Origin: a virus
Length of the DNA stretch: 29,593 bases
IMG/VR virus record: IMGVR_UViG_3300010354_000408
Span: 1 to 29,593 of that record
Reading direction: 5' to 3' (one strand)
Within the stretch, counting starts at the first letter, position 1. Every line of letters starts with the position of its first letter. The translations under genes and the position numbers were made by a program. Under the pieces are notes generated by a model, which ran no database searches, was not told the DNA's origin, and saw only the letters and a list, made by a program, of their open reading frames with translations. Shown piece after piece: positions 1 to 28,533 of the stretch.

Positions 1-1057
1 CTCCTTCCCAGTTGCTACCAGCAGTGGTGCCACCAGCATCTCCGCCAACCGAAGTAATCACTGTTCCATTCACTGTGACCGAGGAGTTTTGTCCATTTTG
101 TGACTGTGTTGTGCCTGCTCTAACTGCCCCATTACCACCTGCTCCTACTGTATAATTCACGGTTAGTCCTGCCCAAGCAGTTCCTATATTCTGATAGGTT
201 ATCTGTCCACCCTCACCACCACCGCCTCCACGACCGTTACCATTATCGCTTGAGTTGCCCCATGATCCACCACCTCCTGCTCCAATAAGCAGCATTTCAA
301 TATCAGTAGAACCGGCTGGTATAGTATGAGAGCCTGACTGAGCAGTGGTAATATCAACCGTTACTCGCTGCTTTTTATTAAGAGTCACAGTTAATCCACT
401 GGGAACTGAGTCAACCATCCATATAGGCAAAGTATTACTCAGCGTGCTGAGATTATTTGCAGTGATTGTGTTTGCTGGCGCTGTGCCATTATTAAACCAA
501 TATATGTTGTTATCACCAGCATGAATATGATTTCCATAGATAACACCCGAAAAACTAACAGTATTGTTTGCCCATGCTGCTGAACTATTAGCAGAGACTG
601 TATATACCTGATATATAAAATTAGTAGTATCGGAAATGGATGATGTGATCTCTCGTCGCTGTTTGCCTAATCCACCAAGAGCGTATGATTTAATGGTTCC
701 TAAAGTGTAGTTTCCGCTGGGAGCACTCCAACTTGCGACATCTTGATCAGGTGTTGTGGTATTAGTGTCAGGAACAGCAGTGATACATTCATAGATAATA
801 CCATTATGAACTACATGACGACCAACTTCATAAGCAGTTAGTGTTTGAAAAAATCTTACATTATGACGAACGCCATCAACAGTTGTAAAATCAGCCAAGG
901 TATTTGAAGTTCCACCCGTATAGCGATATAATCTACCTGTATCATGTGTATATACCAACGAGTTAGCACCCATTATGCTTCTCATTGATAGCATTTCAGC
1001 GTCAGTGTGAGTAAAGAACCACCCACGATATTCTATCATTCTAAATTTATCAGGCAT
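1..1057 (-). CDS. Glycine-rich tail fibre/adhesin, 3' end outside window
   Basis: The frame stays open from an ATG at 1057 to the window edge, giving about 352 residues with no stop, so the C-terminus is missing. The protein starts MPDKFRMIEYRGW. Around residues 245-340 it becomes a glycine-rich domain with runs such as GAGGGGS, GGGGGEGG and YTVGAGGNGA. Such domains occur at the receptor-binding tips of phage fibres, including the polyglycine loops of T4-type gp38 adhesins. A good Shine-Dalgarno (AAGGA) lies about 7 nt before the ATG, and only 8 nt separate the gene from the fibre gene upstream, so the two are probably cotranscribed. A role as distal host-recognition protein is inferred from composition and position. 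The first 240 residues match no family I recognise. Confidence 0.75.
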   Translation of the reverse strand, partial: MPDKFRMIEYRGWFFTHTDAEMLSMRSIMGANSLVYTHDTGRLYRYTGGTSNTLADFTTVDGVRHNVRFFQTLTAYEVGRHVVHNGIIYECITAVPDTNTTTPDQDVASWSAPSGNYTLGTIKSYALGGLGKQRREITSSISDTTNFIYQVYTVSANSSAAWANNTVSFSGVIYGNHIHAGDNNIYWFNNGTAPANTITANNLSTLSNTLPIWMVDSVPSGLTVTLNKKQRVTVDITTAQSGSHTIPAGSTDIEMLLIGAGGGGSWGNSSDNGNGRGGGGGEGGQITYQNIGTAWAGLTVNYTVGAGGNGAVRAGTTQSQNGQNSSVTVNGTVITSVGGDAGGTTAGSNWEG

Positions 1058-2835: not shown

Positions 2836-2864
2836 TATGTCTCCCGGTTCACTATCCCCTAGGG

Positions 2865-2891: not shown

Positions 2892-2898
2892 ATTTATC
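2891..2898 (-). promoter_or_regulatory. Late promoter box GATAAATA
   Basis: This one-mismatch version of the T4 late box TATAAATA lies on the minus strand 55 nt before the fibre gene ending at 2835. T4-type late promoters consist of this box alone, recognised by gp55 with host RNA polymerase. Confidence 0.55.
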
Positions 2899-2903
2899 TC
2901 ATC

Positions 2904-7329: not shown

Positions 7330-8453
7330 CATTTCCATACTAAAATGGCACCACGAGTTTTATCACCAATCTTGATTGATCCACAAGAGTAATTGCTACT
7401 CTTAAAATATGTTGATCCGTAAAGATTTAGTTCCCATTTAGTTAATTCACGATATCCGTCAACTGTTTGCCATGTTCCTGTGCCCGGGTTATTATTAGGG
7501 TTAACTTGAACATTCTGATAATTTCCAACTGATAACCATTTATGATTGGCTGAGTCCCAATACACTCTGTTAATTGGAGAAGAATCAGCAGTTGACATTG
7601 CTGGAAGATAGGAAATAGAGTTTGTATTTTGTGTGACAAATCCCTGATTAGTGGGACTACGACCATGAAAGAACATACCATTATGAGCGATAGTAGACCA
7701 TCCAATGTTATCACTAGAATATAATATGCCATTAATAGTAATCGAGGGAATAGTTACTTCAGTCCAATTTATCAAATCGGTTGACTTCATAACAATACCG
7801 CCACCTACTGTTCCCGTTGTTGCTCCATTCACGTCTACACCAACCACCATTGCTATTCGTTGTAATGATAAAGGCACTGCTCCAACAGCGAGCCCTTTCC
7901 ATGTAACACCTGGACTCACAATCATTGTTGTTGGCATTGCCACTCGTGTTGCTGTTTTCCAAGTATCAACTCGATCACTGACATACATGATTCCACTACT
8001 ACCATAGGCGATATATTTATCAAATACAGAATCGTAGACCACGCCTCGAAACACTCGATTCTGAGGAACATCGGTCTGAGCCGCTCTCCAGGTTACGGCA
8101 TTATCTTTGCTATAATATATGCCAGTTGATGTGGGACCCAAATATCCATCCCATGCTACAACTACCCAATTTCCCTGACCATCAGTTGCTATTCCTGAAC
8201 TTCCGGCTCCATAATATGATTGTGGTATGAGATGCTTTTTCCATGAATGACCGTTTCTGCTTGTAATAATAACGCCAGAAATCAGACTTGCATTAAGAGA
8301 ACTTTGTTCTCCTCCGGTAGCAACGATAATACTATCAGTGGCAACAATATCATTAAGCAGAAATGATCTATCCCAGGTAAACAGTGTTCTATTTGGACCT
8401 CGTTCTAGTGGATAGATATTATCTAGGCCATGACTATTTAAACGTGTTGCCAT
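7329..8453 (-). CDS. Beta-propeller-like tail protein with degenerate Asp boxes
   Basis: This 374-residue protein carries at least four sialidase-type Asp-box-like motifs: SRNGHSW, SKDNAVTW, SDRVDTW and STDLINW. They are spaced through residues ~80-235 and interleaved with hydrophobic strands such as GNWVVVAWDG and DKYIAYGSSG. This pattern is typical of BNR/Asp-box beta-propellers, which bind or cleave glycans in several phage tail proteins. I cannot identify the catalytic Arg triad and Tyr/Glu of true sialidases, so glycan binding or a purely structural role is as likely as catalysis. Its ATG overlaps the stop codon of the giant fibre gene (TAATG), which implies translational coupling and perhaps assembly on the same fibre. 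Confidence 0.7.
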   Translation of the reverse strand: MATRLNSHGLDNIYPLERGPNRTLFTWDRSFLLNDIVATDSIIVATGGEQSSLNASLISGVIITSRNGHSWKKHLIPQSYYGAGSSGIATDGQGNWVVVAWDGYLGPTSTGIYYSKDNAVTWRAAQTDVPQNRVFRGVVYDSVFDKYIAYGSSGIMYVSDRVDTWKTATRVAMPTTMIVSPGVTWKGLAVGAVPLSLQRIAMVVGVDVNGATTGTVGGGIVMKSTDLINWTEVTIPSITINGILYSSDNIGWSTIAHNGMFFHGRSPTNQGFVTQNTNSISYLPAMSTADSSPINRVYWDSANHKWLSVGNYQNVQVNPNNNPGTGTWQTVDGYRELTKWELNLYGSTYFKSSNYSCGSIKIGDKTRGAILVWK

Positions 8454-11400: not shown

Positions 11401-14068
11401 TAATATTAGGCTGTGATGCAGTTGTTAGAGTGCCCGTGAATAACTGAGCAGTAACATTAGAATTAGAAACAATATCGTTAGCTAGTAAATTACCTGTAAC
11501 ATTCAGTGAATCTAGATTGCCAGTTTCTGTGATGTTGGGCTGTGATGCTTGAGCAAGTGTGCCCCATAGTACATTAGCACTAATAACATTAGCGAATATC
11601 TGTTCGCCAACATAAGCATTGGCAGTAACTGTTAAGTCAGTATTAACGGTAACTGAGTTAGCACTAACTGAATTTGCTATCACGTTTGCTGCTGTTACTG
11701 AATCAGTTGTATCAATGTTACCACTTGAAATAGCAGTAAGATAAAGCGTGCCGTTTGCTGCTGTATATCCTACTTCAAGCGTAGATAATCTGCCAATCTC
11801 ATGAATGTTGGGCTGTGAGTTAGAGTTAGCGCCAATCTGTCCCTCAATACCCCCTAGACCCTGAACTGTTAAATTGCCAGCAATCAGAGTATCATGAGTT
11901 GTTACTATGCCACCATCATCAAAAGTTACAGCATAAATTGTTCCAGTATTTGCATCAGTATATCCAACACTCAGATCTAGAAGTTGTCCAACTTGAGTAA
12001 TATTGGGCTGATTATTAGTAGTCAACGTACCAGTAATCAAGTCAGCAGTTATCTTGTTTGCTATAAGTACGCCGTCACCATCAATTGTAAGATTAGCAGT
12101 TGTTGTGCCAATTTCTAGACTTGTTAAGCGTCCTACGCTAGTAATATTAGGCTGACTGCTATCATTAACAGTGTTAGCCACTGATGCAGCAGTAACTATG
12201 CCCACAACATTAGCAGCCGTAATGCTTGATAAGTTACTGCCGTCTCCACTAAAATAAGCAGCAGTAACATCATTTGTAACAGTGACCGAGTTTTGTACTG
12301 CTAAATCTGTTTGAATAGTAACTTGATCAGCGACAATATCACTGACTCCTGTTAATGTTCCCGATAACGTCATGTCTCCTGCAACATCAAGCCCAGTCAA
12401 AGTACCAACTGAAGTGATATTCGGCTGAGCACCGATAGTTATATTTCCAGCATAGTCAGCCAAGTCAGCACGATCAACTGTACCCACAACATTAGCAGCC
12501 GTGATCATTGATAAATTACTGCCATCTCCGATAAAATAAGCAGCAGTAACATCATTTGTAACAACAAGATTATTGCTAACAGTAACTGTATTATCTACCG
12601 TTAAATTATTTGCTATGGTTACATTTTTAGCAACAGTTAAATCATCAGTAATTGCTGTTGTGCCCAATGATGTTGTATTAGCAACAAGATCACCTATGAT
12701 TACGTTAGCGGGATCAACGCCACGAGTAATAACAAGATTTGTATTATCAGATGAGAATGTATATTCGTTAAAATAAACGTTATTGTTAATATATAAATCT
12801 GACCAACTCTGTGTTGCAGATCCTATACTCTGAGCATTATGTTGTAGCGGTAACAACGCTCCATCAATGTTGCCTGTAATTTCAAGATCAGTTGTAGTTA
12901 TAAGTTGATTGACAACAAGGGTATTACTTGTAAGCGAATTACCAACTTGAGCATCGTTAGCAATAGTAACACTGTCTTGAATATCAACATTGCTCAGAGC
13001 AGTGACAAGATTAGTTACCGTTAAATTATTTGAAATACTAGCACTGTTGGCAATAGTAATACTATCACCTATGCTTGCTGCATTAGCAATGGAGAGATTA
13101 TTTGCTTGAATGTTACCAGCATAATCAAACACTGTACTAGTATTTGTGCCGGTTATGCTGCCAGTTCTTGATATTTCAAGACTCAGAGCATTTGCTGTAT
13201 CATAAAACGTCAGTGAATCACCAGTTGCTTGAAGCGTGGGCTCAGTGACATTCCCTATTCTGAATAGAACATCGTTTGTAATCTCTCGCTCATCAATATT
13301 AGTGCTACCTGTATTAGCACTAACTTCTAACACGGTAACATACGCTACTTGATTCGAAAAGATATACTCGCTTGTTGTGGTATTTGATAACACAGTGTTA
13401 GCATTAACAGTACCATTAGCATAAATCGTTGTTGGATAATCAGTTTGTGCTGCCCCGTTGCCCGATAACTTGCTTGTGATGATAACAGCATCATCAGCGG
13501 GATTATCCATTTTAACTTCTACAACATTACTAAAAACAGCACTGCTAGCACTAAGAGCAATCGTTATATTAGCCGTGCTCGCTCTGAGATTCCCATCAAC
13601 ATTAGCATTACCAACAATCTCAGTGTTATAAACACTCAGAGTAGATGTAGTGTTATTCCATGATAGATTGGGACTTGCTCCCAACCCACTTCCATTATTA
13701 AATTGAACTTGTCCTGATGATCCCTGAACAGTTGCAGAGGGATCAAGTACTAACCCTTGAATATTCGCCCAAGTGACACCACCGTTACCATTAGACTGTA
13801 AAAACCAACCGTTTAACGAAGCATCAATAGGACCGATCTGTAAATTAGATACATCAGCAATTACAAGATTACCTGATACTTCAATGGGACTATATTTTGT
13901 CAGTATCTCAGTGTTATTGATAGCAGGATCATCGGGTCTGTTTGAATCATTGCCAATAAACAATCGACGATGATCATCAGCCCATCCTAATTCGCCGGGA
14001 GCTAATTGTGGCAGATCTGCTAGATTGCCGCTTCTAATCTGAATTCTTGAGATTTGTACGATGGCCAT
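8453..14068 (-). CDS. Giant repeat tail-fibre protein, 1871 aa, Mtd-like N-terminus
   Basis: The first ~45 residues (RIQIRSGNLADLPQLAPGELGWADD, then RRLFIGN) match the tail-attachment segment of fibres with a major-tropism-determinant-like N-terminus. The body, about residues 550-1600, repeats two alternating modules. One is QPNITSVGTLTxLxVxG (about 17 copies, variants QSNIT, QTEIT, QANIR). The other is a FSGDGSNLSxITAANVVGTVxxA type (about 9 copies). The C-terminal ~280 residues are not repetitive and contain two GNxxW motifs and a likely trimerisation or binding head. No S74 chaperone motif was recognised. A GATAAATA late box lies 24 nt upstream of the ATG with no Shine-Dalgarno. It is the longest gene here and probably a long tail fibre. 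Confidence 0.85.
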   Translation of the reverse strand: MAIVQISRIQIRSGNLADLPQLAPGELGWADDHRRLFIGNDSNRPDDPAINNTEILTKYSPIEVSGNLVIADVSNLQIGPIDASLNGWFLQSNGNGGVTWANIQGLVLDPSATVQGSSGQVQFNNGSGLGASPNLSWNNTTSTLSVYNTEIVGNANVDGNLRASTANITIALSASSAVFSNVVEVKMDNPADDAVIITSKLSGNGAAQTDYPTTIYANGTVNANTVLSNTTTSEYIFSNQVAYVTVLEVSANTGSTNIDEREITNDVLFRIGNVTEPTLQATGDSLTFYDTANALSLEISRTGSITGTNTSTVFDYAGNIQANNLSIANAASIGDSITIANSASISNNLTVTNLVTALSNVDIQDSVTIANDAQVGNSLTSNTLVVNQLITTTDLEITGNIDGALLPLQHNAQSIGSATQSWSDLYINNNVYFNEYTFSSDNTNLVITRGVDPANVIIGDLVANTTSLGTTAITDDLTVAKNVTIANNLTVDNTVTVSNNLVVTNDVTAAYFIGDGSNLSMITAANVVGTVDRADLADYAGNITIGAQPNITSVGTLTGLDVAGDMTLSGTLTGVSDIVADQVTIQTDLAVQNSVTVTNDVTAAYFSGDGSNLSSITAANVVGIVTAASVANTVNDSSQPNITSVGRLTSLEIGTTTANLTIDGDGVLIANKITADLITGTLTTNNQPNITQVGQLLDLSVGYTDANTGTIYAVTFDDGGIVTTHDTLIAGNLTVQGLGGIEGQIGANSNSQPNIHEIGRLSTLEVGYTAANGTLYLTAISSGNIDTTDSVTAANVIANSVSANSVTVNTDLTVTANAYVGEQIFANVISANVLWGTLAQASQPNITETGNLDSLNVTGNLLANDIVSNSNVTAQLFTGTLTTASQPNITEIGTLTSLTVATDITAQDITIANTVSASNLVGTLRTSNQSSITRVGNLIGLTLVGTLNLNNNHVTNVDTITAQYFGGDGSNLSNIVSANIVGTVARANLADYAGNITISAQPNITSVGNLTHANVFGNLLIKTSASGTDSVQISNGAISLTNDITGNGANFTEDVRANRFYGNGRTLSSLSAGNIDIGTLDRQRLTGEYDIDISGTSNFARQVTESNQSNITTVGTLTSLTVAGTTNSGLFSGDGGSLSNIRAANIVGIVDHANFADNANLANRVTLSYQPNITRLGTLVELNVLGNTLTDYITVNNDVITNVVAANYVDGLIRTSNQTEITQLGNLVVLDVTGTVTANVVISNLFIGNAEQLYSIPGANITGAVPLSNLAEYVTESNQANIRNLGVLDQVRSNGNITTYNGIYNGDAGGLSNIRAANIVGVMNNASVMNAEQSNRANIALQVAGANVVGTVSEAITSRWVSENAQPNITVLGTLQELDISGSLVGNTANFEHVISNTLYARLTRPDQPEITSVGTLDNLTVSGTVLASTFSGNGSGLTGILGTAVIGTVENATYSEVANIAVEVSNGFQPNITTVGNLYYLHVTGNLEANTLSGNGAGLRNITGANITGIVANANYSAYAGTVFANGVIGNIPLSLSAYTVISSDQPNITSVGNLISLAVDGEITANTINAVITHAIQPNITRLGNLSQLKVIGEANLGDIDNIKISGGNPNNIITTDGFGNLSWTSAGSGTVTRVNLIAGNGISISGSPIVTNGNITVTNSGVTHIEAGSGITINQSTGNVVISADAIYTPPAGSSGAVQYHDVANYEFSGDPLFTYDPSAKMLTVPNISTTGTAYLSSAVIGTGIIASGADTITILDDAPLGLQALDISQTNQWIFLQETTTDFIIKFVNILGVATTGRSVTYTVIVKNNSFNGYICTGIMMDNTSIPTINWLQGTPYPVTNGYDIYTFTVIKTANGYIAFGQRASTQ
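9275..12430 (-). repeat. Coding repeat array in the giant fibre gene
   Basis: About 17 copies of a QPNITxxGxLxxLxVxG unit alternate with about 9 copies of a GDGSNLSxIxAANxVGTV unit. Neighbouring copies vary in length, which suggests repeated duplication and drift. Two pairs remain nearly identical in DNA (11064-11170 with 12423-12529; 12201-12281 with 12483-12563). Confidence 0.85.
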
Positions 14069-14854: not shown

Positions 14855-15175
14855 CTAGATCGTGAAAGATTTCCCACACCCACAACGATCACGTTCGTTG
14901 GGATTTACAAACTTGAATCCTTCGTTGATTTCTTGACGTTCCCAATCAATAACTAAACCTTGAAGATAGCATTCGTTCTTGATATCACAAAATACTTTAA
15001 TACCATTGCTCTCATGAATACGATAACCAGTATCAAAACGATCCATGAATTCTAAAACATAAGCAAGACCACTACAGCCTGTAGTCTTGACACCTACGTT
15101 TATGCCTAGACCTCGTCCTCGTTTGTGAAGTAACTCAGTTATCTTTAATGCTGCTTGCTCAGTCAGTGTAATCAT
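14855..15175 (-). CDS. iscA: A-type iron-sulphur cluster carrier (IscA/ErpA/HesB family)
   Basis: This is a full-length 106-residue A-type carrier (E. coli IscA is 107). All three cluster-binding cysteines are present: C34 in TTGCSGLAY, and C98 and C100 in CGCGKSF, preceded by the family's F-x-F-x-NPN segment (FKFVNPN). The family binds Fe-S clusters or iron and passes them to apoproteins; in a phage genome it counts as an auxiliary metabolic gene. The ATG overlaps the stop of the preceding gene (ATGA), placing it last in an operon of virion-like genes that begins at 17038. That suggests late expression, possibly to maintain host Fe-S proteins or mature a phage Fe-S protein; this is inference. 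No obvious degradation is visible. Confidence 0.93.
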   Translation of the reverse strand: MITLTEQAALKITELLHKRGRGLGINVGVKTTGCSGLAYVLEFMDRFDTGYRIHESNGIKVFCDIKNECYLQGLVIDWERQEINEGFKFVNPNERDRCGCGKSFTI

Positions 15176-18115: not shown

Positions 18116-19531
18116 CTATTGCTTCTTTATGCTGGCAATCATTGATTTAAGAGCATTACTTTGAATATTAGCAGCAATTTTAGGTGTTTGCTCAGAGCTT
18201 TCAGTTGATCGTATTTCAATTGATGGTGTTGTAACTGTGCTCTTTGTTCTAATCTTGTCTAGAATTGAACTACCAGAAGTTTCAGCGGCAGAGTTATTAT
18301 CGTGATCATCGCCATTATCAAAGATTCTTAAAGTTTCACGATCAAAACTCAGATCAATCTTTTGACCAACTCCGCTGCTATTACGAGTTTTCAAAAACTG
18401 AATCTGATACTGACCACGCTCTCTCATAGCACGACTAGTAAATATACCAAATACGTTATCAGCAGTATTGATTTTACTGATACCACCAGAGATATGACTG
18501 TGATCAAACTCAACTTCTTCAACGGCGTTACGATTTAACTGACTAGCAGTGACCAAAAGAACTTTGAGTTCTTTAGCAAGATTTCTGATCTCTTCACTAA
18601 CATACTTGTCTTTGATAAAGAGATCGCTTGGACTTACTTTGGCACTCACAGGCATTAACAAGTCAAGATAGTCAATACACAAAAAGTCAATCTTCTTTCC
18701 TGATTCTATCTGGAGATTTTTGATATAGGCACGAATATCATTAACAGTACTCTGAGCAGGCAAATACTTGACCCAAAATGCTCCACTTCGTTTGCCGATC
18801 ATTCTTACCTTTAGATCTACATCATCAAGATCCTTAAAAGTATTTTTCATGGATACTCCCGACATCATACTGTCTATACGCCAACTACAAAGTTCCTCAC
18901 TGAGTTCTAAGGTAATATATACGCCATTTAGATTAGCCTGAGCCCAATTTACAGATAGATTTTGCATGAATAGCGACTTTCCTGATCCTGATCCACCAGC
19001 AAAAATCTGTAACTCTCCACGATTAAACCCACCATATAACTTATTATCAACTGACGGCCAACCAGTGCTAATCTGTCCGTTACTATTCTTGATAGCTTCT
19101 AGTCGAGCACGAGGATTAGCAAAGTATTCAGTGCCCAAGTCTTTTTGTAAACTAATCTGAACTGCATCCTTGATTAGCTTTTCAACTGGGTCATAGTTTC
19201 CTTTTTCTAATAAGTCGGCAGCTTTAAGAATCGCTCTTTCAAGCTCCTGTCTTTTAGTAAAACGCTCAAACTCATCCAAGAACCATATAGAATCTGACTC
19301 TCGTAGACCCTCGATAGGATCAATAGTCTGACCAGTTGTCGCCAAAATCTGAACACTATCTGGCATAACATTATACTTTTCAGCATGATCTTTAATCATT
19401 GTGACCACTGGCTGTAAGTTCTTGTGAAAGTTTTTGGCATCTAAGATGTTACTAACTCTAGGATAAAGATGAGGATCAGTGATCATCATTCTAACTAATG
19501 CTGTTTGCATTTCAATACTTGCTGAACTCAT
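18116..19531 (-). CDS. 41: Replicative DNA helicase, DnaB/T4 gp41 family
   Basis: This 471-residue protein (T4 gp41 is 475) has a DnaB-like N-terminal helical domain, the RecA-type core with Walker A GGSGSGKS at residues 179-186, and Walker B in IDFLCIDYLDLL at 281-292. The VTASQLNR motif lies at ~327-334, with a downstream HISGG and DNVFGI region. It would unwind DNA 5'-3' as a hexamer at the phage fork together with the primase encoded just upstream. Its ATG overlaps the primase stop (ATGA), so the two are translated in coupled fashion, which suits stoichiometric primosome assembly. The low-complexity C-terminal ~70 residues are probably a flexible tail that contacts partners. Confidence 0.93.
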   Translation of the reverse strand: MSSASIEMQTALVRMMITDPHLYPRVSNILDAKNFHKNLQPVVTMIKDHAEKYNVMPDSVQILATTGQTIDPIEGLRESDSIWFLDEFERFTKRQELERAILKAADLLEKGNYDPVEKLIKDAVQISLQKDLGTEYFANPRARLEAIKNSNGQISTGWPSVDNKLYGGFNRGELQIFAGGSGSGKSLFMQNLSVNWAQANLNGVYITLELSEELCSWRIDSMMSGVSMKNTFKDLDDVDLKVRMIGKRSGAFWVKYLPAQSTVNDIRAYIKNLQIESGKKIDFLCIDYLDLLMPVSAKVSPSDLFIKDKYVSEEIRNLAKELKVLLVTASQLNRNAVEEVEFDHSHISGGISKINTADNVFGIFTSRAMRERGQYQIQFLKTRNSSGVGQKIDLSFDRETLRIFDNGDDHDNNSAAETSGSSILDKIRTKSTVTTPSIEIRSTESSEQTPKIAANIQSNALKSMIASIKKQ

Positions 19532-20496
19532 TTAAATTTTCCTCGGGCCATTCTTAACTTTATTTCATTCGTTGTTCTATTTTGTAAAATACTTAATAGA
19601 GTTGGTAATCGTCCATATTTTAATACAGCGTCATTGACATCTTTTACATCATCAGCCCAATCAGGAATACTTATTTTGTATCCTAATTCTAAAGCTCTAG
19701 TACCAATTTCTAGTCCCGCTCGATCATGATCAGGGACAACAATCACTTCTTTATTTAAAGACGATATTAATCTTGCTTGTTCATCATTGATTGTGCTACC
19801 AAGATAAGCACATCCATTAATACTCATGGCATCAATCTGACCTTCTACAAGAATCAAAATCTGATTTTCTGGATGTTGTCGATCAAGATTAAACACAAAT
19901 CCTCGTTGCTGATTGGAAATATACTTAGGTGTTCTATCATCGTAATGTCTAATAGTATAACCAACTATTTCTTGACGATAGTAATAGGGTATGATAATAC
20001 CTGGGCGATTTGTATAGTCTTTCGTGAATACATAAAACTTATTACTATGATAGTCTATTCCACGTCGTTCCAAATATTCTTTATCTCGTTTATGATTGGG
20101 ATTAGTAAAGTCAAATGGCTCACACGATTCAGGAAGATCAACCGTCTTAAAAGAAACCGTGATTGCGGACCGACGCTGAGTCATTAAGTCTTTAAGAATA
20201 TCTCGATGTTTCCAACTCTCAAAACTCATCTTATCGATGTCTTGATCGCTGACTCCACACCATGATAGTAATTGCTTGACCCGAGATCCAAATTGATTTC
20301 CTATAGATACTGAGCACTTAAATTGGCAGTTAAAACAATGATAGGTCCAATCGGTTTCATTCTGAAATATAACTCCGCCACGATTACGTTTGTCAGGCTT
20401 ATGACCACGATGATGACAGCATATGGCATTAAAAGAATACCAACCAGTAGAGGTTTTACGTTTTCTGCCTGGAATGAGCGAGATTATATCTATCAT
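19528..20496 (-). CDS. 61: DNA primase, T4 gp61 type (zinc ribbon + TOPRIM)
   Basis: The 322-residue protein (gp61 is 342) opens with a zinc-binding domain: cysteines and histidines at C26, C27, H28, H32, C54 and C57 (ICCHHRGH ... HCFNCQ). The TOPRIM catalytic core follows, with the conserved glutamate in ILILVEGQIDAMSI and DxD in VVPDHDRAG. It makes the RNA primers for lagging-strand synthesis together with the coupled gp41-type helicase. An in-frame GTG six codons upstream (20514) exists. I prefer the ATG at 20496 because the promoter's -10 box (TATCAT, 20505-20510) lies over those codons and the family's N-terminus normally begins shortly before the zinc domain. The transcript then would be nearly leaderless. 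Confidence 0.92.
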   Translation of the reverse strand: MIDIISLIPGRKRKTSTGWYSFNAICCHHRGHKPDKRNRGGVIFQNETDWTYHCFNCQFKCSVSIGNQFGSRVKQLLSWCGVSDQDIDKMSFESWKHRDILKDLMTQRRSAITVSFKTVDLPESCEPFDFTNPNHKRDKEYLERRGIDYHSNKFYVFTKDYTNRPGIIIPYYYRQEIVGYTIRHYDDRTPKYISNQQRGFVFNLDRQHPENQILILVEGQIDAMSINGCAYLGSTINDEQARLISSLNKEVIVVPDHDRAGLEIGTRALELGYKISIPDWADDVKDVNDAVLKYGRLPTLLSILQNRTTNEIKLRMARGKFK

Positions 20497-20504
20497 AGAT
20501 AGAT

Positions 20505-20534
20505 ATGATATCACATTTCGTAGTGTAAAGTCAA
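20505..20534 (-). promoter_or_regulatory. Sigma70-type promoter of primase-helicase
   Basis: TTGACT (20529-20534), an 18-nt spacer and TATCAT (20505-20510) on the minus strand. The -10 ends 8 nt before the preferred primase ATG at 20496. Confidence 0.6.
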
Positions 20535-20538
20535 TCTA

Positions 20539-21321
20539 TTACTTTACCAAAATCTCGGTAATGTCACCTATATTAGCCGAATTTGAATGAGTGCCCTGAT
20601 TGTCAAAGTCTAGTCTCAGATAGTTATAGTGACCATCAACTACTATTGCCATGGATCCACTAAAATCAGTTAATTGATAGTTCTTATCTTTAACTGGAAC
20701 TGGTCTGGAAAAGCTTGGCACATCGCTAGAGATAACAGTAATCGTTCCTGTATAGTTGCTGGCCCAAATCTGAAAAGTGGTTATCGGGGAACCAGTTGAC
20801 TCAATAATAGAACTCTTAAACTTTACAGGCACTGCTGGTCTTGTTGGCAATTTTACATCCTGAGCGCTGATTGTTCGAGGATAAATGCTATCAACAATCT
20901 CTGCCACGCCACGAGCCTGTCCATTATTCAAGGTGTATCCTGCTTTCTCACCTGAATCCTGCTGCCAACTAATGCTATAGTAGCCTCGCTGAGCATCTAA
21001 ATATTCAGTTTCGGACGGAGTGAGTATCAATTTCATAAGCCCTGTTGCTGGATATACTGGCTCTAGTAGCTTGCTAGCAAGTAGTATATCGCCCCGATCA
21101 TTCATTAATCTCCACATCAGATTTTGATTGAATAAGTTGACATTCTTTTGATTCTGATTGATAAAATGAAATTCGATCTCGTTGGTAATACCACGATGAA
21201 TGGTAATTGGTTTGCTATACACGGCTTGATATCTCCTGTTACTACTGTCAGTAGAATTTAGATATAATAAAACAATCTGATTTCGGTCAGTGACTAAATA
21301 AACTTGACTTTGAGCGGGCAC
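20539..21321 (-). CDS. Beta-rich structural-type protein, 260 aa, GTG start
   Basis: The protein begins at GTG (21321) with AAGGA about 9 nt upstream and a CATAAATA late-like box 19 nt upstream, supporting late expression. The N-terminal ~130 residues (ITIHRGITNEIEFHFINQNQ, LMWRLMNDRGDILLASKLL, ATGLMKLILTP, GYYSISWQQDSGE) resemble the immunoglobulin-like N-terminal domain of phage baseplate or upper-fibre proteins (BppU-type), by pattern only. The C-terminal half is another beta domain (TTFQIWASNYTGTITV, FSGSMAIVVDGHYNYLRLDF) that looks like a metal- or ligand-free jelly roll. A virion structural protein is likely. It ends 42 nt before the preferred primase start, in the region of the primase promoter. 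Confidence 0.7.
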   Translation of the reverse strand: MPAQSQVYLVTDRNQIVLLYLNSTDSSNRRYQAVYSKPITIHRGITNEIEFHFINQNQKNVNLFNQNLMWRLMNDRGDILLASKLLEPVYPATGLMKLILTPSETEYLDAQRGYYSISWQQDSGEKAGYTLNNGQARGVAEIVDSIYPRTISAQDVKLPTRPAVPVKFKSSIIESTGSPITTFQIWASNYTGTITVISSDVPSFSRPVPVKDKNYQLTDFSGSMAIVVDGHYNYLRLDFDNQGTHSNSANIGDITEILVK

Positions 21322-21340
21322 AATACTTTGTCCTTTATAC

Positions 21341-21348
21341 TATTTATG
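21341..21348 (-). promoter_or_regulatory. Late promoter box CATAAATA
   Basis: The box lies 19 nt before the GTG start of the structural-type gene at 21321 and overlaps the ATG of the divergent plus-strand gene. Confidence 0.5.
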
Positions 21349-21723
21349 ACTACTGACTTTTTTAAGAAACTCACCGAGAATCATCCATTTATCACAGTAT
21401 GTAGCTATGGAGGACAAGAATATATTGGCATCGTTCAGAATAAAGATGATTCCTTTACAACATTCTATGACTATGGTAGCATTGCTGAGCAATCACTGAA
21501 ACAAGCCTTCTTGAATTTGGGCGATACTTGGTGGTGGGAAAGTAATAGAATGATACCCATAAACATATTTCTAAAGACAGAATGGGCACCATTTAAGCCC
21601 TATCTTAAAACATTTAATAATCGTGGACTAGTCGTACTTCATGGACCTGTTGTTAGTCTAGACGATATAAACAAAAAACGAATTAAGCGACGAAGTATTA
21701 CTCTAGTTCGTCGTACCCTCTAG
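21346..21723 (+). CDS. Conserved phage protein of unknown function, 125 aa
   Basis: I chose the ATG at 21346 (MTTDFFKKL); the only longer start is a TTG at 21304 whose extra residues look untranslated and overlap the divergent gene. The compact, aromatic-rich sequence contains a conserved-looking block LGDTWWWESNRMIPINIFLK (residues ~57-76) and a basic C-terminus (KKRIKRRSITLVRRTL). From memory, homologues with the TWWWESNR-x-IPINIFL block occur in marine T4-like phages without known function. No Shine-Dalgarno is visible. A TATACT box ends 4 nt before the ATG but lacks a -35. Its last 26 nt overlap the end of the convergent PolIII-like gene. Confidence 0.75.
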   Translation: MTTDFFKKLTENHPFITVCSYGGQEYIGIVQNKDDSFTTFYDYGSIAEQSLKQAFLNLGDTWWWESNRMIPINIFLKTEWAPFKPYLKTFNNRGLVVLHGPVVSLDDINKKRIKRRSITLVRRTL

Positions 21724-22282
21724 CTAACATATTCATATTAACAATCACTAAGTGACTATAAGCAATGGCGTGACTTCTCTTAAAATGATAACTGTCATCA
21801 TTGGGACGATCCCAGATAGTTCTAGCAACTTCAGCCCATGATAGTCCTATTAGATGTCGCTTAGCTGGTCTAATAACACTGAGCATCATACTCAATCTAG
21901 CAATGCTTGTAATAGGCTCAGGCATCTGTCGAATAGTATCATAATGACGACCAAGATGAATCAGTTTACTCACAAACTCTCGATCTTCAAGATTACTCCA
22001 ATCAGGCTCTTTCATTAGATCAATCAACTCCGCTTCTGTTTTAATATGAGCGTAGAGTTTAACATTTAATATATCTAATTTGAAATAACCACGCTGCTCT
22101 GCTTGTTGATAATCAATGCTGGCCATGTTCGTTAAGCAGTCTCGGGGACAGTCAGTAACATAAATGCCAGTATTATGCTTTCTTGAACGAACGTTATCTT
22201 GTTGTATGGCAGGAATATGAGCGATCAATTTCAATATCTGCTCTCGATCACCAACGTCTATATCAACGTCACTCTTAAACAT
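21698..22282 (-). CDS. Miniature DNA polymerase III alpha-like (C-family palm/fingers) protein, 194 aa
   Basis: The protein is collinear with the palm and fingers of bacterial PolIII alpha. SDVDIDVGDREQILKLI (residues 4-20) matches the PDxDxDF...RR.xVI catalytic motif, so D5 and D7 correspond to E. coli D401 and D403. KHNTGIYVTD (35-44) matches KHAGGVVIAP. GYFKLDILNV (65-74) matches GLVKFDFLGL, so D70 corresponds to D555. The segment ending MLSVIRPAK (133-141) matches ALVALFRPGP, and YHFKRSHAIAY (165-175) matches YGFNKSHSAAY. PHP, helix-hairpin-helix, beta-binding and OB/tau regions are all absent (PolIII alpha is ~1160 residues). Polymerase activity is uncertain; a regulatory or structural relic is possible. 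It is last in the operon with the gp62-like gene. Confidence 0.75.
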   Translation of the reverse strand: MFKSDVDIDVGDREQILKLIAHIPAIQQDNVRSRKHNTGIYVTDCPRDCLTNMASIDYQQAEQRGYFKLDILNVKLYAHIKTEAELIDLMKEPDWSNLEDREFVSKLIHLGRHYDTIRQMPEPITSIARLSMMLSVIRPAKRHLIGLSWAEVARTIWDRPNDDSYHFKRSHAIAYSHLVIVNMNMLARGYDELE

Positions 22283-22285: not shown

Positions 22286-22987
22286 TCAAATTCCACAACG
22301 TTCAAGTAGCATAACAGCAGACCGATACATATCGGGATCACGACGTATCTTGATATTCCAATAAACAGGGTCAATATACTCATTGATAAACGAAACTTCA
22401 GATTCACTGAGTTTGGCCAACCATTCTTGTGCTCGTGGGCTGGCATAGAGAACCCAAGGACTAATCTGACCCTGAGTAATCATATGACATATCTTGCCTC
22501 TTGGTCCATAGAGAAATACATCCTCTAAACGAATGTTCTCAATCTTTGATAGATCGATTAGAGATTCTGCTGTTCTATAAATAGCATCATAGAGATCTTC
22601 ATGTTTCACGAACTGTATCAAGAACTTAGTATATACTGTATCACTGGCCCACTTATCAAGTGGTACTGAGTTTTTTAGTAGATAATCAATATAGGAAACA
22701 ATACTAATCACACGAGAGGAAGAACAGTATTCTCCAAATCGAACAAACCCACGATAGTAGGGACTCTTGATAAAATCAATATAGGAAAGCGATCTATTTG
22801 ATCCTATATGAACAGTGTTGTAAAACTTAACCCATGAATTGAAACCGATTCTGTTTCCAGGCATATTTTGACTGGTCCATCGTTTCTTTTTCTCACACAT
22901 ATGAGTCTGAAACGAACTGGGCCTAATAAATGTCTTGTTACACCATTGACAAGTCAAATCATTAGTCTCTGCCAAGTTCTCTTTCAT
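22286..22987 (-). CDS. Zinc-finger protein conserved in T4-like phages, function unknown, 233 aa
   Basis: An N-terminal zinc knuckle is clear: C13 and C16 in CQWC, then H29 and C31 in HMC (C-x2-C-x12-H-x-C), followed by a basic patch KKKRW. The rest is helical with aromatic blocks (FVRFGEYCSSSRVISIVSYIDYLL, GQISPWVLYASPRAQEWL) and ends IDPVYWNIKIRRDPDMY. I recognise this overall layout (zinc finger, KSPYYxxFVxFG, ISPW, IDPxxW) from uncharacterised proteins of cyanophages and other marine T4-like phages. DNA or RNA binding is likely but unproven. The ATG lies 26 nt inside the end of the gp62-like gene, and 3 nt separate its stop from the PolIII-like gene. Confidence 0.8.
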   Translation of the reverse strand: MKENLAETNDLTCQWCNKTFIRPSSFQTHMCEKKKRWTSQNMPGNRIGFNSWVKFYNTVHIGSNRSLSYIDFIKSPYYRGFVRFGEYCSSSRVISIVSYIDYLLKNSVPLDKWASDTVYTKFLIQFVKHEDLYDAIYRTAESLIDLSKIENIRLEDVFLYGPRGKICHMITQGQISPWVLYASPRAQEWLAKLSESEVSFINEYIDPVYWNIKIRRDPDMYRSAVMLLERCGI

Positions 22988-23552
22988 ATTCTGCTATCTC
23001 TTCCTGAGTTGTTAATAAGTTTAGAACTTCAAGATCCTCATACTTTAATAGGTCATTCATTTTGGCAAGACGACACTTCTTGTGTTGCTCATCAAGATAA
23101 ATCTTACTAAACTCTTTAATGTCAGAGGCTTTACTGCCAACATAAACCTTGCCAAAGTAATCCTGAACTTGCTTGATCGTTGCTGGCTCACGATATTTAC
23201 TAATACGTTCAGATAGATGAGGAATCCATTCATGAAATTGTCGTCCCATCTTAGGACTGCTAACACAAAGCATGAGCCATTGTAATTCAGGATGATTCTG
23301 AACGTGCTCGTTAAACAAATGTCGATTGGCAAATTCTTCAGTACTTAACACATGATAAGCCGAAATGTCTCCGTTTTGTTTGACGGCACTCATCCACATA
23401 AGCATCATATAGGGAACAAACTTCTTTTGTTGCTCTTCACTTAACTTACTATAGTAGTTATAGTCTTTACGATCAAGCGCCGCTAAAGCATCAAACAAGT
23501 CAAAGTCTTGTTTCTCTAAACGCGCATCCTGATTAGTGGTTGTTTTTTTCAT
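22962..23552 (-). CDS. 62: Probable clamp-loader small subunit (T4 gp62-like)
   Basis: I chose the ATG at 23552 (MKKTTTNQDARL) because it forms a TAATG overlap with the upstream stop; a GTG three codons earlier is less likely. The 196-residue protein is close to T4 gp62 in size (187). It has the order FDALAALDRKDYNYY, then FVPYMMLMWMSAV, then LFNEHVQNHPELQWLMLCV and KMGRQFHEWIPH, the last resembling gp62's FNYLMAAV...GKRYGKWAKL. gp62 acts with gp44 to load the sliding clamp. The assignment rests on weak by-eye similarity and on its replication-gene neighbours. gp44 and gp45 are not in this window. Confidence 0.5.
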   Translation of the reverse strand: MKKTTTNQDARLEKQDFDLFDALAALDRKDYNYYSKLSEEQQKKFVPYMMLMWMSAVKQNGDISAYHVLSTEEFANRHLFNEHVQNHPELQWLMLCVSSPKMGRQFHEWIPHLSERISKYREPATIKQVQDYFGKVYVGSKASDIKEFSKIYLDEQHKKCRLAKMNDLLKYEDLEVLNLLTTQEEIAEYERELGRD

Positions 23553-24052
23553 TAGAAGCACTGTGCAAAATCTACAATCTCACAGTTTCTGCTTATCTCT
23601 TTAACTGTGTAGATACATCTGGGTCTAACATGATCATCAATTGGTATGCTAAGAAACTGTCCGTTCTTTAGTCTGGGAGCATACCATGTTATGTCATGAT
23701 AAATGTCTACGATCTCAATGTCAAGAAAACTGGGCTTGAAACCGGATAAGGGATTGAACTCAAATGCCTTGAATCCACGATCAGTAATGCTCTTTAAGGG
23801 AACCGTTTCTAAATCGCCAAACTCAGGCTCACCAATCAAGATCTGCCAATCAAGAGGCATTTTGATTATCTGATCGTCAATTCTTACCACCAAAGCACTG
23901 CTATTAAAGCTTTCTAAAAAGATTAATGGTATGTAATGATAGTCAACGTTATTAGGATTGCTATTGTCTAGAATAGCGAATCTCATATCGTCGATTTCCT
24001 CAGGAAGAGTTTCCAGATTGTATGCTATGTTATCTAATGTCAGTATTTTCAT
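23552..24052 (-). CDS. Conserved protein of unknown function, first gene of the gp62-like/PolIII-like operon
   Basis: This 166-residue protein (MKILTLDNIAYNLETLPEE...) is mixed alpha/beta. It has a segment HYIPLIFLESFNSSALVVRIDDQIIKMPLDWQILIGEP (residues ~39-76, described as a run of beta strands) and a C-terminal block NGQFLSIPIDD ... CIYTVKEIS (residues ~129-154). I have an impression of similar 'LKNGQxLxxPL...P.C.YFVKxIS' proteins in large myoviruses, without function. A sigma70-like promoter (TTGACA-17 nt-TATCAT) ends 6 nt before the ATG, with no Shine-Dalgarno. Its stop overlaps the next start (TAATG). Confidence 0.75.
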   Translation of the reverse strand: MKILTLDNIAYNLETLPEEIDDMRFAILDNSNPNNVDYHYIPLIFLESFNSSALVVRIDDQIIKMPLDWQILIGEPEFGDLETVPLKSITDRGFKAFEFNPLSGFKPSFLDIEIVDIYHDITWYAPRLKNGQFLSIPIDDHVRPRCIYTVKEISRNCEIVDFAQCF

Positions 24053-24058: not shown

Positions 24059-24087
24059 ATGATATAATATATTGTCATCATTGTCAA
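24059..24087 (-). promoter_or_regulatory. Sigma70-type promoter of the gp62-like/PolIII-like operon
   Basis: TTGACA (24082-24087), a 17-nt spacer and TATCAT (24059-24064) on the minus strand. The -10 ends 6 nt before the ATG at 24052, and no Shine-Dalgarno is present. Confidence 0.65.
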
Positions 24088-24793: not shown

Positions 24794-26251
24794 CTACTTA
24801 TAAACGATCTTCTCTAGCGTGAAAGGATAGTTTGCCTCTCTATAGAATTCCTTGCGTTTAGTGAGGTGACGTTTGGAAAATTTACAGCTGGAGGTGATAT
24901 CCCAAATCTGTACGAAGTCTTTATCTTCTGCCTTACGCACACCTCTACCGATTGATTGAATGACTCGCACAAACGATTTACCCGGTTCTATCATAACTAA
25001 GTTGAAGATGCGAGGTATATTCAGTCCGACGGCAGCCACACCATATGTAGCCACAATAATCTTATCGTCGCTGATTGCTACTTCATCATATTCTTCTTTA
25101 CGATCTTTGTTCTTTGTTTTACCACTAACGAATACACTATTGCTTATTCTGGAAACCAGTTCCTCACCCGCAGCAATACGATCAACCAAAATAAGTGTAT
25201 TGCCTGTCTTAACAATCTCATGAATAAGATCACTGATTTTATCTAATCGTTCTTTATTCTCTAACAGATACCTTAACTCACCCTGATAATCTCTGAAGTC
25301 CTGATCATCCTGAAACTGAACAATGTTTACATGACATTGTGCTAAAACTCCACGTTCCTGAAGCTCGCTTGCACTAAGTTGTCCTACAAGAGGACCAATA
25401 CCACAAAACAGAGCCTGTCGAGCGTAGTCATCTTTGGGTATAGTTCCCGTTAGTCCCCATCGTATGGGTACATGACTCATGACTCCGGTTAGTAAAGACT
25501 TGAGAGCATCAGCTTTAGCACTATGAGCCTCGTCAATCATAATACAAACAACATTCTCGATAAACTCTCCAATGGGTACAACGCCAGTATGATCTTTGGT
25601 GCCCTTGAGAATATTGTTCAAACTCTGCCAAGTACAAATAGTATGCTGATGCCCAATCTCCTTTCTATCTTGAAAGTACACCCCAACATCAAGTCCCAAG
25701 TTACGATAATCTGCTTCTGTCTGTCCCACTAAGCTTTTATTGGGCACTACGACAATTGTTCTACCAACGTGCTGACAACTATATGATAGAGCAGCAGTCA
25801 TGATTGTTTTTCCAGCACCAGTAGCGACCTCTTGAACACATTGTGGGTTTTCAAGAAAGTTGTTGATAATGTCTATCTGATAGTCTCTTAGAACAATAGG
25901 TTCACCTGCTTGTGGGTGTCCTGTGGGCCATGATTTTTCGCTAAACGTCTGTTGATCTATTCTATTAAACTGAAAGCTCGTTGAGTAGTCTCTAATATCT
26001 TCAAGATCGATGTCGTAGCCCTGCTGCTCTAAGAAAGGTATAATCTCAGATAACAGATTTACATATGTGGATCCACCAAGTTGAAAATAACTGACCTTGC
26101 CATTCCATCGGCCCAAGCGAACACTTGGCAGATATCTTGCCCCAGGAATCTCGTATTCAAACTGACGAGCCAGTGCTCGACGATCACTAACGTCTAGGCC
26201 CTCTATTTTTACGTTAACCTCATCTTTTACAATAATCGTAGCGGTTTTCAA
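24794..26251 (-). CDS. uvsW: SF2 DNA/RNA helicase, T4 UvsW family
   Basis: The 485-residue protein has the small N-terminal UvsW domain (residues 1-95, including PSVRLGRWNGKVSYF, close to UvsW's F-R-Y-G-N-W-D-G-R-I). All SF2 motifs follow: Q motif LRDYQ (121-125), Walker A ATGAGKT (143-149), DEAH (240-243), LTGT (267-270) and motif VI QSIGRGVRK (~435-443). UvsW remodels recombination intermediates, unwinds R-loops and branched DNA, and shifts T4 from origin- to recombination-dependent replication. The start is TTG with GGAG 9 nt upstream; a nearby ATG is out of frame. Its own promoter (TTGACT-17 nt-TATAAT) follows the terminator of the AAA+ gene. Confidence 0.93.
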   Translation of the reverse strand: MKTATIIVKDEVNVKIEGLDVSDRRALARQFEYEIPGARYLPSVRLGRWNGKVSYFQLGGSTYVNLLSEIIPFLEQQGYDIDLEDIRDYSTSFQFNRIDQQTFSEKSWPTGHPQAGEPIVLRDYQIDIINNFLENPQCVQEVATGAGKTIMTAALSYSCQHVGRTIVVVPNKSLVGQTEADYRNLGLDVGVYFQDRKEIGHQHTICTWQSLNNILKGTKDHTGVVPIGEFIENVVCIMIDEAHSAKADALKSLLTGVMSHVPIRWGLTGTIPKDDYARQALFCGIGPLVGQLSASELQERGVLAQCHVNIVQFQDDQDFRDYQGELRYLLENKERLDKISDLIHEIVKTGNTLILVDRIAAGEELVSRISNSVFVSGKTKNKDRKEEYDEVAISDDKIIVATYGVAAVGLNIPRIFNLVMIEPGKSFVRVIQSIGRGVRKAEDKDFVQIWDITSSCKFSKRHLTKRKEFYREANYPFTLEKIVYK

Positions 26252-26362: not shown

Positions 26363-27406
26363 TTAACGATTCATACAAGTGCTACGAGCAAGAGCTTGCC
26401 AGTTTTCAGGACTGATCTTTACTAAGTCTGCTAACTTAAGAGCCATTCTTAAACTTAGTTCTCTAAGTTTAGTCATGTTTGCTTTCATAAACTCAAGTAT
26501 CTGTTCAGCCTCTCCATTATCAAAGTCATAATCACGAAATAACCCACCGTCAGCATCACGATGAACCTGAGAGATACGAAGCATTTTATCACGCTCGGTG
26601 TCAATTGTTAGATCGATAAAATGACAACGACTTTGAAGTGCCTCTAAATGATCCTGTAGCTTTTTGCTCTTGAGATTTTGAAACTTAAGATTCGTAATAA
26701 AGATTACCGAACCCTTAAACTCAAATTGATCGGGTACTCCTTCACGACGAAGCATGGCACTATCTGAATTCCAAAAAATACGACGCCGCTTACCAGAGTC
26801 AAGTGCTGCTTTGAGAATATTAAGAGCCAAGTCATCCTGAAATACTGAATCACAGTCATCAAAAACTAAAACGTTCTTTGAATCGCTAAACTTGAAGAGC
26901 TGACAATATAGACCGATAGGAGTCATAGCACCCTTTACGATTTCAAAACGAACCCGTTTACCGGCTAACTTATCGAACAAACTAGCCTTTTCCATTTGTG
27001 TTTCCACACCAAAACTTTTACCCACTCCTGGAGGGCCAGAAACAATCAAGGCACGAATATCACCATTTATTGCTGCTAGACTCATCTGATCAAGAACAGA
27101 AAATTGGCCAGCGATACGATTCATAGCCTCATCATCTGATTCGGCGATAACTGGAACTGATTGAGTCTGAGGCATGTTCGAAATAAATCCTAGAGAAGGT
27201 AAACGAGGAGTCTCGTTTACAGTAAAACTGCCAGAGTTTGGCACGTCAATGTAAACTTGTTTTGCTTGTGTTGGAAGATTGCCGTTATTCTTGACCTGAA
27301 CACGTCCAGCAGGCATACTCTCAATTGGGCGAGCAAGTTCAAAAGTCTGATTTTCGATTCTGGTTGACTTGTAGAAACCCTGATTGATAATAACGGTTTT
27401 AGCCAT
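26363..27406 (-). CDS. AAA+ ATPase of unknown role, 347 aa
   Basis: Residues ~95-300 form an AAA+ module: Walker A GPPGVGKS (124-131), Walker B NVLVFDDCD (178-186) and sensor 1 VIFITN (234-239). An arginine-finger candidate lies in LQSRCHF (around R260). The N-terminal ~90 residues are low complexity and probably flexible. Related stand-alone AAA+ proteins occur in many large phages; without a partner domain the substrate cannot be named. It has a perfect-consensus sigma70 promoter (TTGACA-17 nt-TATAAT), AAGGA before the ATG, and its own intrinsic terminator, so it is a monocistronic, strongly transcribed early gene. A role in DNA metabolism or host take-over is inference. Confidence 0.85.
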   Translation of the reverse strand: MAKTVIINQGFYKSTRIENQTFELARPIESMPAGRVQVKNNGNLPTQAKQVYIDVPNSGSFTVNETPRLPSLGFISNMPQTQSVPVIAESDDEAMNRIAGQFSVLDQMSLAAINGDIRALIVSGPPGVGKSFGVETQMEKASLFDKLAGKRVRFEIVKGAMTPIGLYCQLFKFSDSKNVLVFDDCDSVFQDDLALNILKAALDSGKRRRIFWNSDSAMLRREGVPDQFEFKGSVIFITNLKFQNLKSKKLQDHLEALQSRCHFIDLTIDTERDKMLRISQVHRDADGGLFRDYDFDNGEAEQILEFMKANMTKLRELSLRMALKLADLVKISPENWQALARSTCMNR

Positions 27407-27440: not shown

Positions 27441-27469
27441 ATTATACACGAAATCAGATTTATTGTCAA
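27441..27469 (-). promoter_or_regulatory. Perfect-consensus early promoter 1 (AAA+ gene)
   Basis: TTGACA (27464-27469), 17 nt and TATAAT (27441-27446). The -35 overlaps the upstream stop codon. A TATTGTAAAC element (27426-27435) downstream mirrors the -35 block TTGACAATA. Confidence 0.92.
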
Positions 27470-28188
27470 CTCAGAACACGAACGAAATTCATTCGAGTCT
27501 GACCGTTTTCCATATGATCCTTGATACGGCCTTTTAGCGTAACCTGAGATCCTTGAGCAAGTTTCTCTGAAAAACTAAAGAATATCACTTGATCCGAATC
27601 AGTAATAGCCGTCACATAATGAGTATTCCAATTGGAACTCCATATACAGCGAAGAATCTCGACTTTAACGAAATCTATCTTTTGCCCTGGCTTGGCGAGA
27701 TATCCACCACGAGCATCTCTAATACGATTTTCAATGCTAGATCTAGCCTGATCATTAGCATAGGCTTGGGGCAGAAATGCTACCGTACCATTATACGCTA
27801 ACAGCCCCGTGACGGTTTCTTTAGTGACGATTGAATTGATACTCATATCAAAGTCAGTGATGATTTTACCTGCTAAGATTGAAACAACATTCTTAGAACG
27901 AAAATGCTTGATAATGATCTGAGCCTGAGGCTTAAAATCTTCGTTAATTTGACTTTGATTTTCAAGAAGAAATCGAACACGCTCAGCATTTACAAAGCAT
28001 TGACTCTGATTATCATTCATCTTATATTCAGTCACTCCCAATCGCTCACCCGCTCTCTCACATGAGATTACATCGCTTGGCTTGACGTATCTTTCAGAAT
28101 TCTCCGCAAATGCCTGACAACTTGCTGCTATCACCAATTCAGTAGGATATACAAGAGACTTTAATCGACTAAATTCTATCTTGGTCAT
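27466..28188 (-). CDS. Early protein of unknown function with OB-fold-like C-terminus, 240 aa
   Basis: The C-terminal ~45 residues (DSDQVIFFSFSEKLAQGSQVTLKGRIKDHMENGQTRMNFVRVL) are here recognised as the 'IxFFS...L..GxxVTLKGxIKxH...G.T.xxRV' strand pattern typical of OB-fold nucleic-acid-binding domains. The N-terminal ~160 residues are mixed, with two cysteines near the start (ASC at ~23, ISCERAGERLG at ~43) and a helical middle. It is read from a perfect-consensus sigma70 promoter with AGGAA 8 nt before the ATG. The stop codon lies inside the -35 box of the following AAA+ gene's promoter. Nucleic-acid binding is a pattern-based inference; the family is not recognised. Confidence 0.75.
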   Translation of the reverse strand: MTKIEFSRLKSLVYPTELVIAASCQAFAENSERYVKPSDVISCERAGERLGVTEYKMNDNQSQCFVNAERVRFLLENQSQINEDFKPQAQIIIKHFRSKNVVSILAGKIITDFDMSINSIVTKETVTGLLAYNGTVAFLPQAYANDQARSSIENRIRDARGGYLAKPGQKIDFVKVEILRCIWSSNWNTHYVTAITDSDQVIFFSFSEKLAQGSQVTLKGRIKDHMENGQTRMNFVRVLS

Positions 28189-28220
28189 ATCTGCTTCCTA
28201 ATGATGTTTACAATACTGCT

Positions 28221-28249
28221 ATTATAGGATAAATCTGATTTATTGTCAA
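28221..28249 (-). promoter_or_regulatory. Perfect-consensus early promoter 2 (OB-like gene)
   Basis: TTGACA (28244-28249), 17 nt and TATAAT (28221-28226). The same extended TTGACAATAAAT block and TATTGTAAAC element (28206-28215) are present as in promoter 1. Confidence 0.92.
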
Positions 28250-28471
28250 CTATTGAGAAATCCAGCCCCAGCCTTCACGCTCAATTTTACGGCGAGCATT
28301 GAGCATGATTTTGCGAAGCTTATTGACTTCTTTAGTAAGAGGAGCCTGGATTCCACCTAATTCTTTAAGAGCAAGAAGGGCCTGATCACGACGTTTATAT
28401 GTTGATAGCGCCGCTTCGGGAATTAAGACATTGGTCATAAACGGACTGGAATACAGAACTTTTTTCATCAT
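28250..28471 (-). CDS. Small basic early protein of unknown function, 73 aa
   Basis: The protein (MMKKVLYSSPFMTN ... EREGWGWISQ) is basic and mostly helical, with RRDQALLALKELGG and a Lys/Arg-rich C-terminal third. Either of two adjacent ATG codons could start it; the Shine-Dalgarno is weak. Its promoter is the third copy of the strong early type (TTGACA-17 nt-TATAAT), so it is probably an abundant early product. Its stop is next to the -35 box of the next gene's promoter. Small early basic phage proteins often bind host proteins, but nothing here shows a target. Confidence 0.65.
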   Translation of the reverse strand: MMKKVLYSSPFMTNVLIPEAALSTYKRRDQALLALKELGGIQAPLTKEVNKLRKIMLNARRKIEREGWGWISQ

Positions 28472-28504
28472 CTTGAACTCACTGTCTTAACTGTCAATAA
28501 TGCT

Positions 28505-28533
28505 ATTATACTATCAAGTCAATTTATTGTCAA
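28505..28533 (-). promoter_or_regulatory. Perfect-consensus early promoter 3 (small basic gene)
   Basis: TTGACA (28528-28533), 17 nt and TATAAT (28505-28510), again with the TTGACAATAAAT extension. The downstream element is altered to TATTGACAG. Confidence 0.9.

Follow-up and report, generated by a model that had tools for sequence, protein, structure and literature searches.

A Split Relative of DNA Polymerase III Alpha Encoded by Two Separate Genes in Large T4-like Phages

INTRODUCTION

Is a phage protein of 194 amino acids that resembles DNA polymerase III alpha (PolIII alpha) a polymerase in its own right or a part of a larger enzyme? The question is raised by a gene on the minus strand (22282..21698, ATG to stop) of the IMG/VR virus record IMGVR_UViG_3300010354_000408, of which the whole analyzed stretch of 29,593 nucleotides is referred to here as the window. 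An initial annotation of the DNA letters had described this open reading frame (ORF) as a miniature PolIII alpha that keeps five sequence blocks and three catalytic aspartates, lacks everything else of the enzyme, and might be a minimal polymerase, a clamp- or polymerase-interacting factor or a decoy of the host replisome. The computational analysis reported here indicates that the protein is not a self-contained polymerase but half of an enzyme core encoded by two genes. The window protein (the C-half) and its partner (the N-half) together probably constitute a minimal nucleotidyltransferase core of the C family (PolIII alpha), which likely serves as an accessory polymerase.

RESULTS AND DISCUSSION

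Relationship of the window protein to PolIII alpha

The C-half is a stand-alone ORF that opens with the DxDxD motif and belongs to a size class of about 190 to 220 amino acids. The ORF was found as first described, on the minus strand, and all five blocks were present in the PolIII order (DVDIDV, KHNTG, GYFKLDILN, IRPAK, and FKRSHAIAY). Its residues correspond to those of Escherichia coli DnaE as follows: D5 to D401, D7 to D403, D9 to D405, H36 to H511, G39 to G514, K68 to K553, D70 to D555, R138 to R639, P139 to P640, F167 to F756, H171 to H760, and Y175 to Y764. The protein contains the palm strands with D5, D7, D9, H36, K68, and D70 and a reduced finger segment with R138-P139-K141, F167-K168, and H171. 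A PHP domain was not found in the C-half, which is too short at 194 residues and gave no Pfam match, and inspection of the C-terminal tails by eye revealed no evident common clamp-binding peptide.

The C-half matched phrog_11778, annotated as "DNA polymerase," over residues 3-187 (E value, 5e-54). In a profile search of PDB sequences, all nine entries obtained up to an E value of 10 were PolIII alpha chains; the best E value was 0.1, so that each match is weak alone, and the matches that were printed were colinear. Alignment of the C-half by hhalign with an alignment of seven DnaE-type proteins gave an E value of 2.2e-5 over DnaE 507-568. With the C-half as a single query sequence, neither PDB nor Pfam yielded a match; the kinship with DnaE is visible only by profiles and structure. 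An AlphaFold2 model, for which the input alignment consisted of the window and virus-contig sequences only, had a predicted local distance difference test score (pLDDT) of 93.9 and a predicted template modeling score (pTM) of 0.83. With this model, VIA-align placed 13 C-family entries on top (Z 6.4-9.7, with 184-191 of the 194 residues aligned), followed by unrelated chains at Z 3.4 and below. Foldseek returned no match at an E value of 0.001 or less; the best value was 6e-3, and the top matches were all PolIII. These results indicate that the C-half is a true relative of PolIII alpha, and they support the ancestry suggested in the initial annotation.

The C-half carries the label "putative membrane protein" in GenBank records such as JN882285 (GAP32), KU574722 (CBB), and MT708547 (Muenster), and this label conflicts with the PolIII relationship. 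The impression that such proteins are unannotated in other phages was only partly right, since RefSeq and PHROGs already say "DNA polymerase" and a split minimal PolIII was described in 2021.

The missing palm segment is a separate gene

The C-half starts four residues ahead of the D401 equivalent, and the preceding 120 or so residues of DnaE, which form the palm segment with the GPGRGS loop, are absent from it. In relatives, this segment is encoded by a separate gene of about 175 codons, phrog_11127 (the N-half), which aligned with DnaE 275-393 at an hhalign E value of 2.5e-10. Since relatives encode the N-terminal palm segment, with its nucleoside triphosphate-binding GxGRGS loop, in a gene of its own, the window protein represents half of a split enzyme, and the view that everything else of PolIII alpha is gone did not hold.

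The GxGRGS-bearing N-halves CBB_328 of phage CBB and gp316 of phage Atu_ph07 stop at the residue matching DnaE "ERFLN," just before D401. Both have been noted before: CBB_328 as a short "PolIII alpha" interpreted as truncated (PMC5259590) and gp316 as a PolIII alpha subunit (PMC6102473). They are the partner N-halves, and the passages devoted to them in these papers do not mention the C-half. The distance from GRGS to the stop was 33-39 residues in 109 N-half ORFs (a number that includes a few single genes fetched twice), and the distance from GRGS to N393 in E. coli is 33. No ORF matching both halves was found among 236 loci. One fused candidate of 310 amino acids (L158) was rejected when its translation was inspected, since the frame appears to read through noncoding sequence upstream of the true start.

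The predicted folds locate the split at the same place. The N-half model (pLDDT 91.9) superposed from residue 70/71 to 178 on E. coli PolIII 270/271..393, Thermus aquaticus (Taq) 287..455, and Mycobacterium tuberculosis 303-413, and the C-half model superposed over residues 1..194 on E. coli 398..786, Taq 459..843/844, and M. tuberculosis 417-813. The two models thus tile the catalytic core with 3-4 residues between them, in DnaE and PolC structures alike. N-half residues 1 to about 70 have no counterpart in the matched polymerase structures.

Conserved and altered residues

The positions D5, D7, D9, H36, G39, K68, D70, and N73, as well as R138, P139, K141, F167, K168, H171, Y175, and N184, were invariant in 110 of 110 C-half homologues; the search patterns used for the virus contigs partly favor K68-D70 and FK-x-x-H (F167-K168-H171), and the other invariant positions are unaffected by this. 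Retention of the aspartates D5, D7, and D70, as initially claimed, is thus supported both by the mapping and by every homologue, and the full-length superposition together with the residue mapping suggests that the three converge in the folded protein. When six joined N-half and C-half pairs were aligned with seven DnaE-type proteins, the pairs kept E328, R362-G363-S364, S368, F391, D401, D403, D405, H511, G514, K553, D555, R639-P640, and H760. P642 is replaced by K in the split pairs, and the interval between R639 and H760 is 33 residues in the split protein versus 121.

Distribution and co-occurrence

Homologues of the C-half covering at least 80% of the query were detected by tblastn in 63 phage records, with identities of 33-46% among the 60 matches listed, in agreement with the earlier expectation that they are common in other T4-like phages. 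Most belong to RaK2-like and other T4-related jumbo phages (GAP32, CBB, 121Q, PA5oct, Atu_ph07, Phosso, SCTP-2); the C-half is also present in the 141-kb Alishewanella phage Slicko01. At least 589 confirmed relatives were obtained when virus contigs were scanned with the C-half alignment. The cellular homologues were ten matches in genome contigs, all of them contigs of metagenome-assembled genomes from scattered taxa, and are most simply read as binned phage DNA.

The two halves occur together. The N-half was present in all five phages picked by their C-half (Atu_ph07, GAP32, Phosso, Slicko01, PA5oct), and the C-half was present in all five picked by their N-half (SCTP-2, Vibrio 2.275.O, XacN1, 121Q, RAS14). 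All ten of these isolate-phage records also contain a family B polymerase beside both halves. The N-half was also found in 9 of 16 longer virus contigs, including L008/G001 (58% identical); many of the 16 are likely fragments. The split pair is widespread in large T4-like phages. No family B polymerase was found in the 29.6-kb window, the record being a fragment.

In Atu_ph07 (L038:16878-19847) and Slicko01 (L253:2491-5129), the annotation divides the family B polymerase itself into two neighboring ORFs. The 150-kb contig IMGVR_UViG_3300027804_000045 encodes, at 1501-3177, a PHP-less DnaE-like polymerase of about 559 amino acids and also holds both split halves and a family B polymerase, and hence three DNA polymerases on one phage contig. 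The closest phage record to this DnaE-like protein (37.6% identity) is LR756508, an unannotated 484-kb uncultured phage.

Possible function of the pair

In the proposed enzyme, the palm would begin in the N-half, which would also bring the GxGRGS loop for binding of the incoming nucleotide, and the C-half would supply the metal-binding D5, D7, and D70, the lysine K68, and the shortened finger helix. The N-half and the C-half may form a heterodimer and share an active site whose only break lies in one loop (E. coli residues 394-397). That the pair has polymerase activity is a moderately favored expectation. Given that it lacks a thumb, a PHP domain, and a C terminus for binding the clamp and DNA, its most likely role would be that of a distributive accessory polymerase alongside the phage family B replicase; it might, for instance, extend primers or fill gaps at the primase-helicase. 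A role in primer extension specifically is a tentative suggestion. Still more speculatively, a thumbless heterodimer of a helicase/primase-linked half and a clamp-loader-linked half might pass primers from the phage primase to the family B replicase; if true, this would be a viral counterpart of the DnaE-to-PolC (or Pol alpha-to-delta) handoff across two polymerase families.

Several observations weigh against an accessory polymerase. The interval between D401 and H511, which we take to contain the thumb, is 31 residues in the split protein versus 110, indicating that the thumb is essentially gone. Several positions invariant in the DnaE-type set are changed: R390 is replaced by E in six of six split pairs, R396 and T680 fall within deletions, and R709 is not conserved. 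Because of these losses and that of the thumb-sized stretch, the pair could bind DNA and act in ways unlike a polymerase. The predicted folds are of single chains. A search of the 29.6-kb window for the GRGS motif in six frames and with a hidden Markov model did not detect the N-half of this phage, the record being a fragment.

The same losses would suit a pair that acts as a nucleotidyltransferase without being a template-directed DNA polymerase. Such an enzyme could, for example, be a terminal transferase, tag primers, or regulate the family B replisome by sensing nucleotides. The metal ligands and K553 are kept despite the loss of the thumb stretch, of most of the fingers, and of R390, R396, and T680, and a family B replicase is at hand in 10 of 10 phages. 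However, H511, R639-P640, and the H760 region of the template- and dNTP (deoxynucleoside triphosphate)-side fingers are still invariant, and the neighboring genes are replication genes. This explanation is possible, although we do not favor it.

That the C-half acts on its own, either as a minimal polymerase or by binding the host or phage replisome, appears improbable. It is predicted as a stable-looking single domain and is encoded far from the N-half, but its palm is incomplete without the segment bearing the GxGRGS loop, which resides in the second protein, and the N-half is conserved with it in 10 of 10 phages, even in Slicko01, the most divergent. It is very unlikely that the protein mimics PolIII alpha to serve as a decoy or inhibitor of the host replisome. 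The likeness to the host enzyme, the reduced catalytic core, and upstream sigma-70-like promoters that suggest expression by the host RNA polymerase are in line with it. On the other side, the parts of PolIII alpha that bind the clamp, tau, and epsilon are exactly those absent, a decoy would not need the invariant D/D/D/K set of metal-binding and triphosphate-contacting positions (110 of 110), and co-conservation of the N-half disfavors it as well. A decaying relic without function, as the large deletions relative to DnaE might suggest, is scarcely credible, since both halves are intact, stand alone, and show strong conservation, with identities as low as 33-46% from one phage genus to another.

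Relation to known systems

Iyer et al. (2021; PMC7824862) described a "phage-specific minimal" PolIII alpha consisting of two proteins in jumbo phages, with Atu_ph07 among the group 2.2 examples. Judging from their description, this split PolIII appears to be the same as the C-half and N-half families. A split minimal PolIII has thus been known since 2021, and the window gene adds a member, from an uncultivated phage unlike those of their jumbo-phage set. Their description concerns jumbo phages only, whereas the pair is also found here in the 141-kb Slicko01, and its passages on the split enzyme are without a residue-level split point, the thumb loss, or the R390-to-E change. PHROGs list phrog_11778 (C-half) and phrog_11127, which the N-halves match, as separate "DNA polymerase" families with no mechanism given. 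New here are the exact split point, the loss of the thumb and of R390, R396, and T680, the occurrence in a 141-kb phage, and the gene order linked to primase and helicase.

DnaE (PDB 2HNH, 2HPI, 3E0D, 5FKU) and PolC share the order of the fold and the metal-binding and active-site residues with the split pair. They differ from it in having a PHP domain, the thumb-sized stretch, most of the fingers, and the clamp, OB, and tau regions. The chain of the split pair is cut between E. coli residues 393 and 398, and R390, R396, and T680 are lost. A complete DnaE-type catalytic core in one chain was not found; the palm is distributed over two proteins, and the thumb-sized stretch is missing. The openly licensed literature that was searched yielded no biochemical test of the pair.

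It is unusual for a replicative polymerase to have its active site divided, always at the same loop, over two genes that are not linked, to have lost its thumb, and to be retained as two halves in many phage genera alongside a family B replicase. If active, the pair would show how little C-family polymerase catalysis needs, and the T4-type replisome model would gain a second polymerase. The pair also bears on the proposal of Iyer et al. (2021) of an ancestral-PolIII-like enzyme, which the present data cannot separate from reductive fission; the shared core is short, and there is no usable outgroup for a tree.

Gene neighborhood and promoters

The C-half gene belongs to a minus-strand cluster that begins with a 166-amino-acid protein (phrog_11279; 23552..24052), followed by a 199-amino-acid protein (phrog_11758; 22962..23561), a conserved neighbor, and a 233-amino-acid protein with a weak C2H2 zinc-finger match (phrog_11058; 22286..22987), whose stop codon lies 3 nucleotides ahead of the C-half start codon. 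A 139-amino-acid ORF on the plus strand (21304..21723; phrog_11637, of unknown function) is convergent with the C-half gene and overlaps its 3' end, and its position and orientation are kept in nearly all relatives compared. Conserved markers on the minus strand are a UvsW-type helicase upstream (24794..26251) and a Toprim DNA primase (19528..20514) and a DnaB-like replicative helicase (18116..19531) downstream. The order of UvsW, the 166-, 199-, and 233-amino-acid proteins, the C-half, the convergent 139-amino-acid ORF, a 260-amino-acid protein, primase, and DnaB helicase is likewise kept in nearly all relatives compared, with some members drifting.

The cluster is probably transcribed from a sigma-70-like site on the minus strand (24059..24087; TTGACA-17-TATCAT, 11 of 12 positions), directly upstream of the 166-amino-acid gene. 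Farther upstream on the same strand, three perfect sigma-70 consensus sites with the common sequence TTGACAATAAAT-N11-TATAAT, lie at 28533-28505, 28249-28221, and 27469-27441, within 1.1 kb (27441..28533), compared with a mean of 0.02 in shuffled windows. Judged by their sequence, these sites fit transcription by the host RNA polymerase.

Nine phages had their N-half region read. In five of them (Atu_ph07, CBB, SCTP-2, XacN1, 121Q), the N-half lies a few genes from an annotated gp44-like clamp loader, and in others it lies near an AAA or P-loop ATPase. The neighbor in the window that had been called a probable clamp-loader subunit (26363-27406) is an AAA+ protein (phrog_1250, of unknown function; E value, 4e-85) whose clamp-loader matches are marginal (E values, 0.005-0.008), and the label is weak.

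Elsewhere in the window, a minus-strand ORF of 1871 amino acids (8453-14068) has almost no recognizable family matches. Also on the minus strand, 14855-15175 encodes a 106-amino-acid protein like the A-type iron-sulfur carriers (Pfam Fe-S_biosyn, E value 8e-15; phrog_17776).
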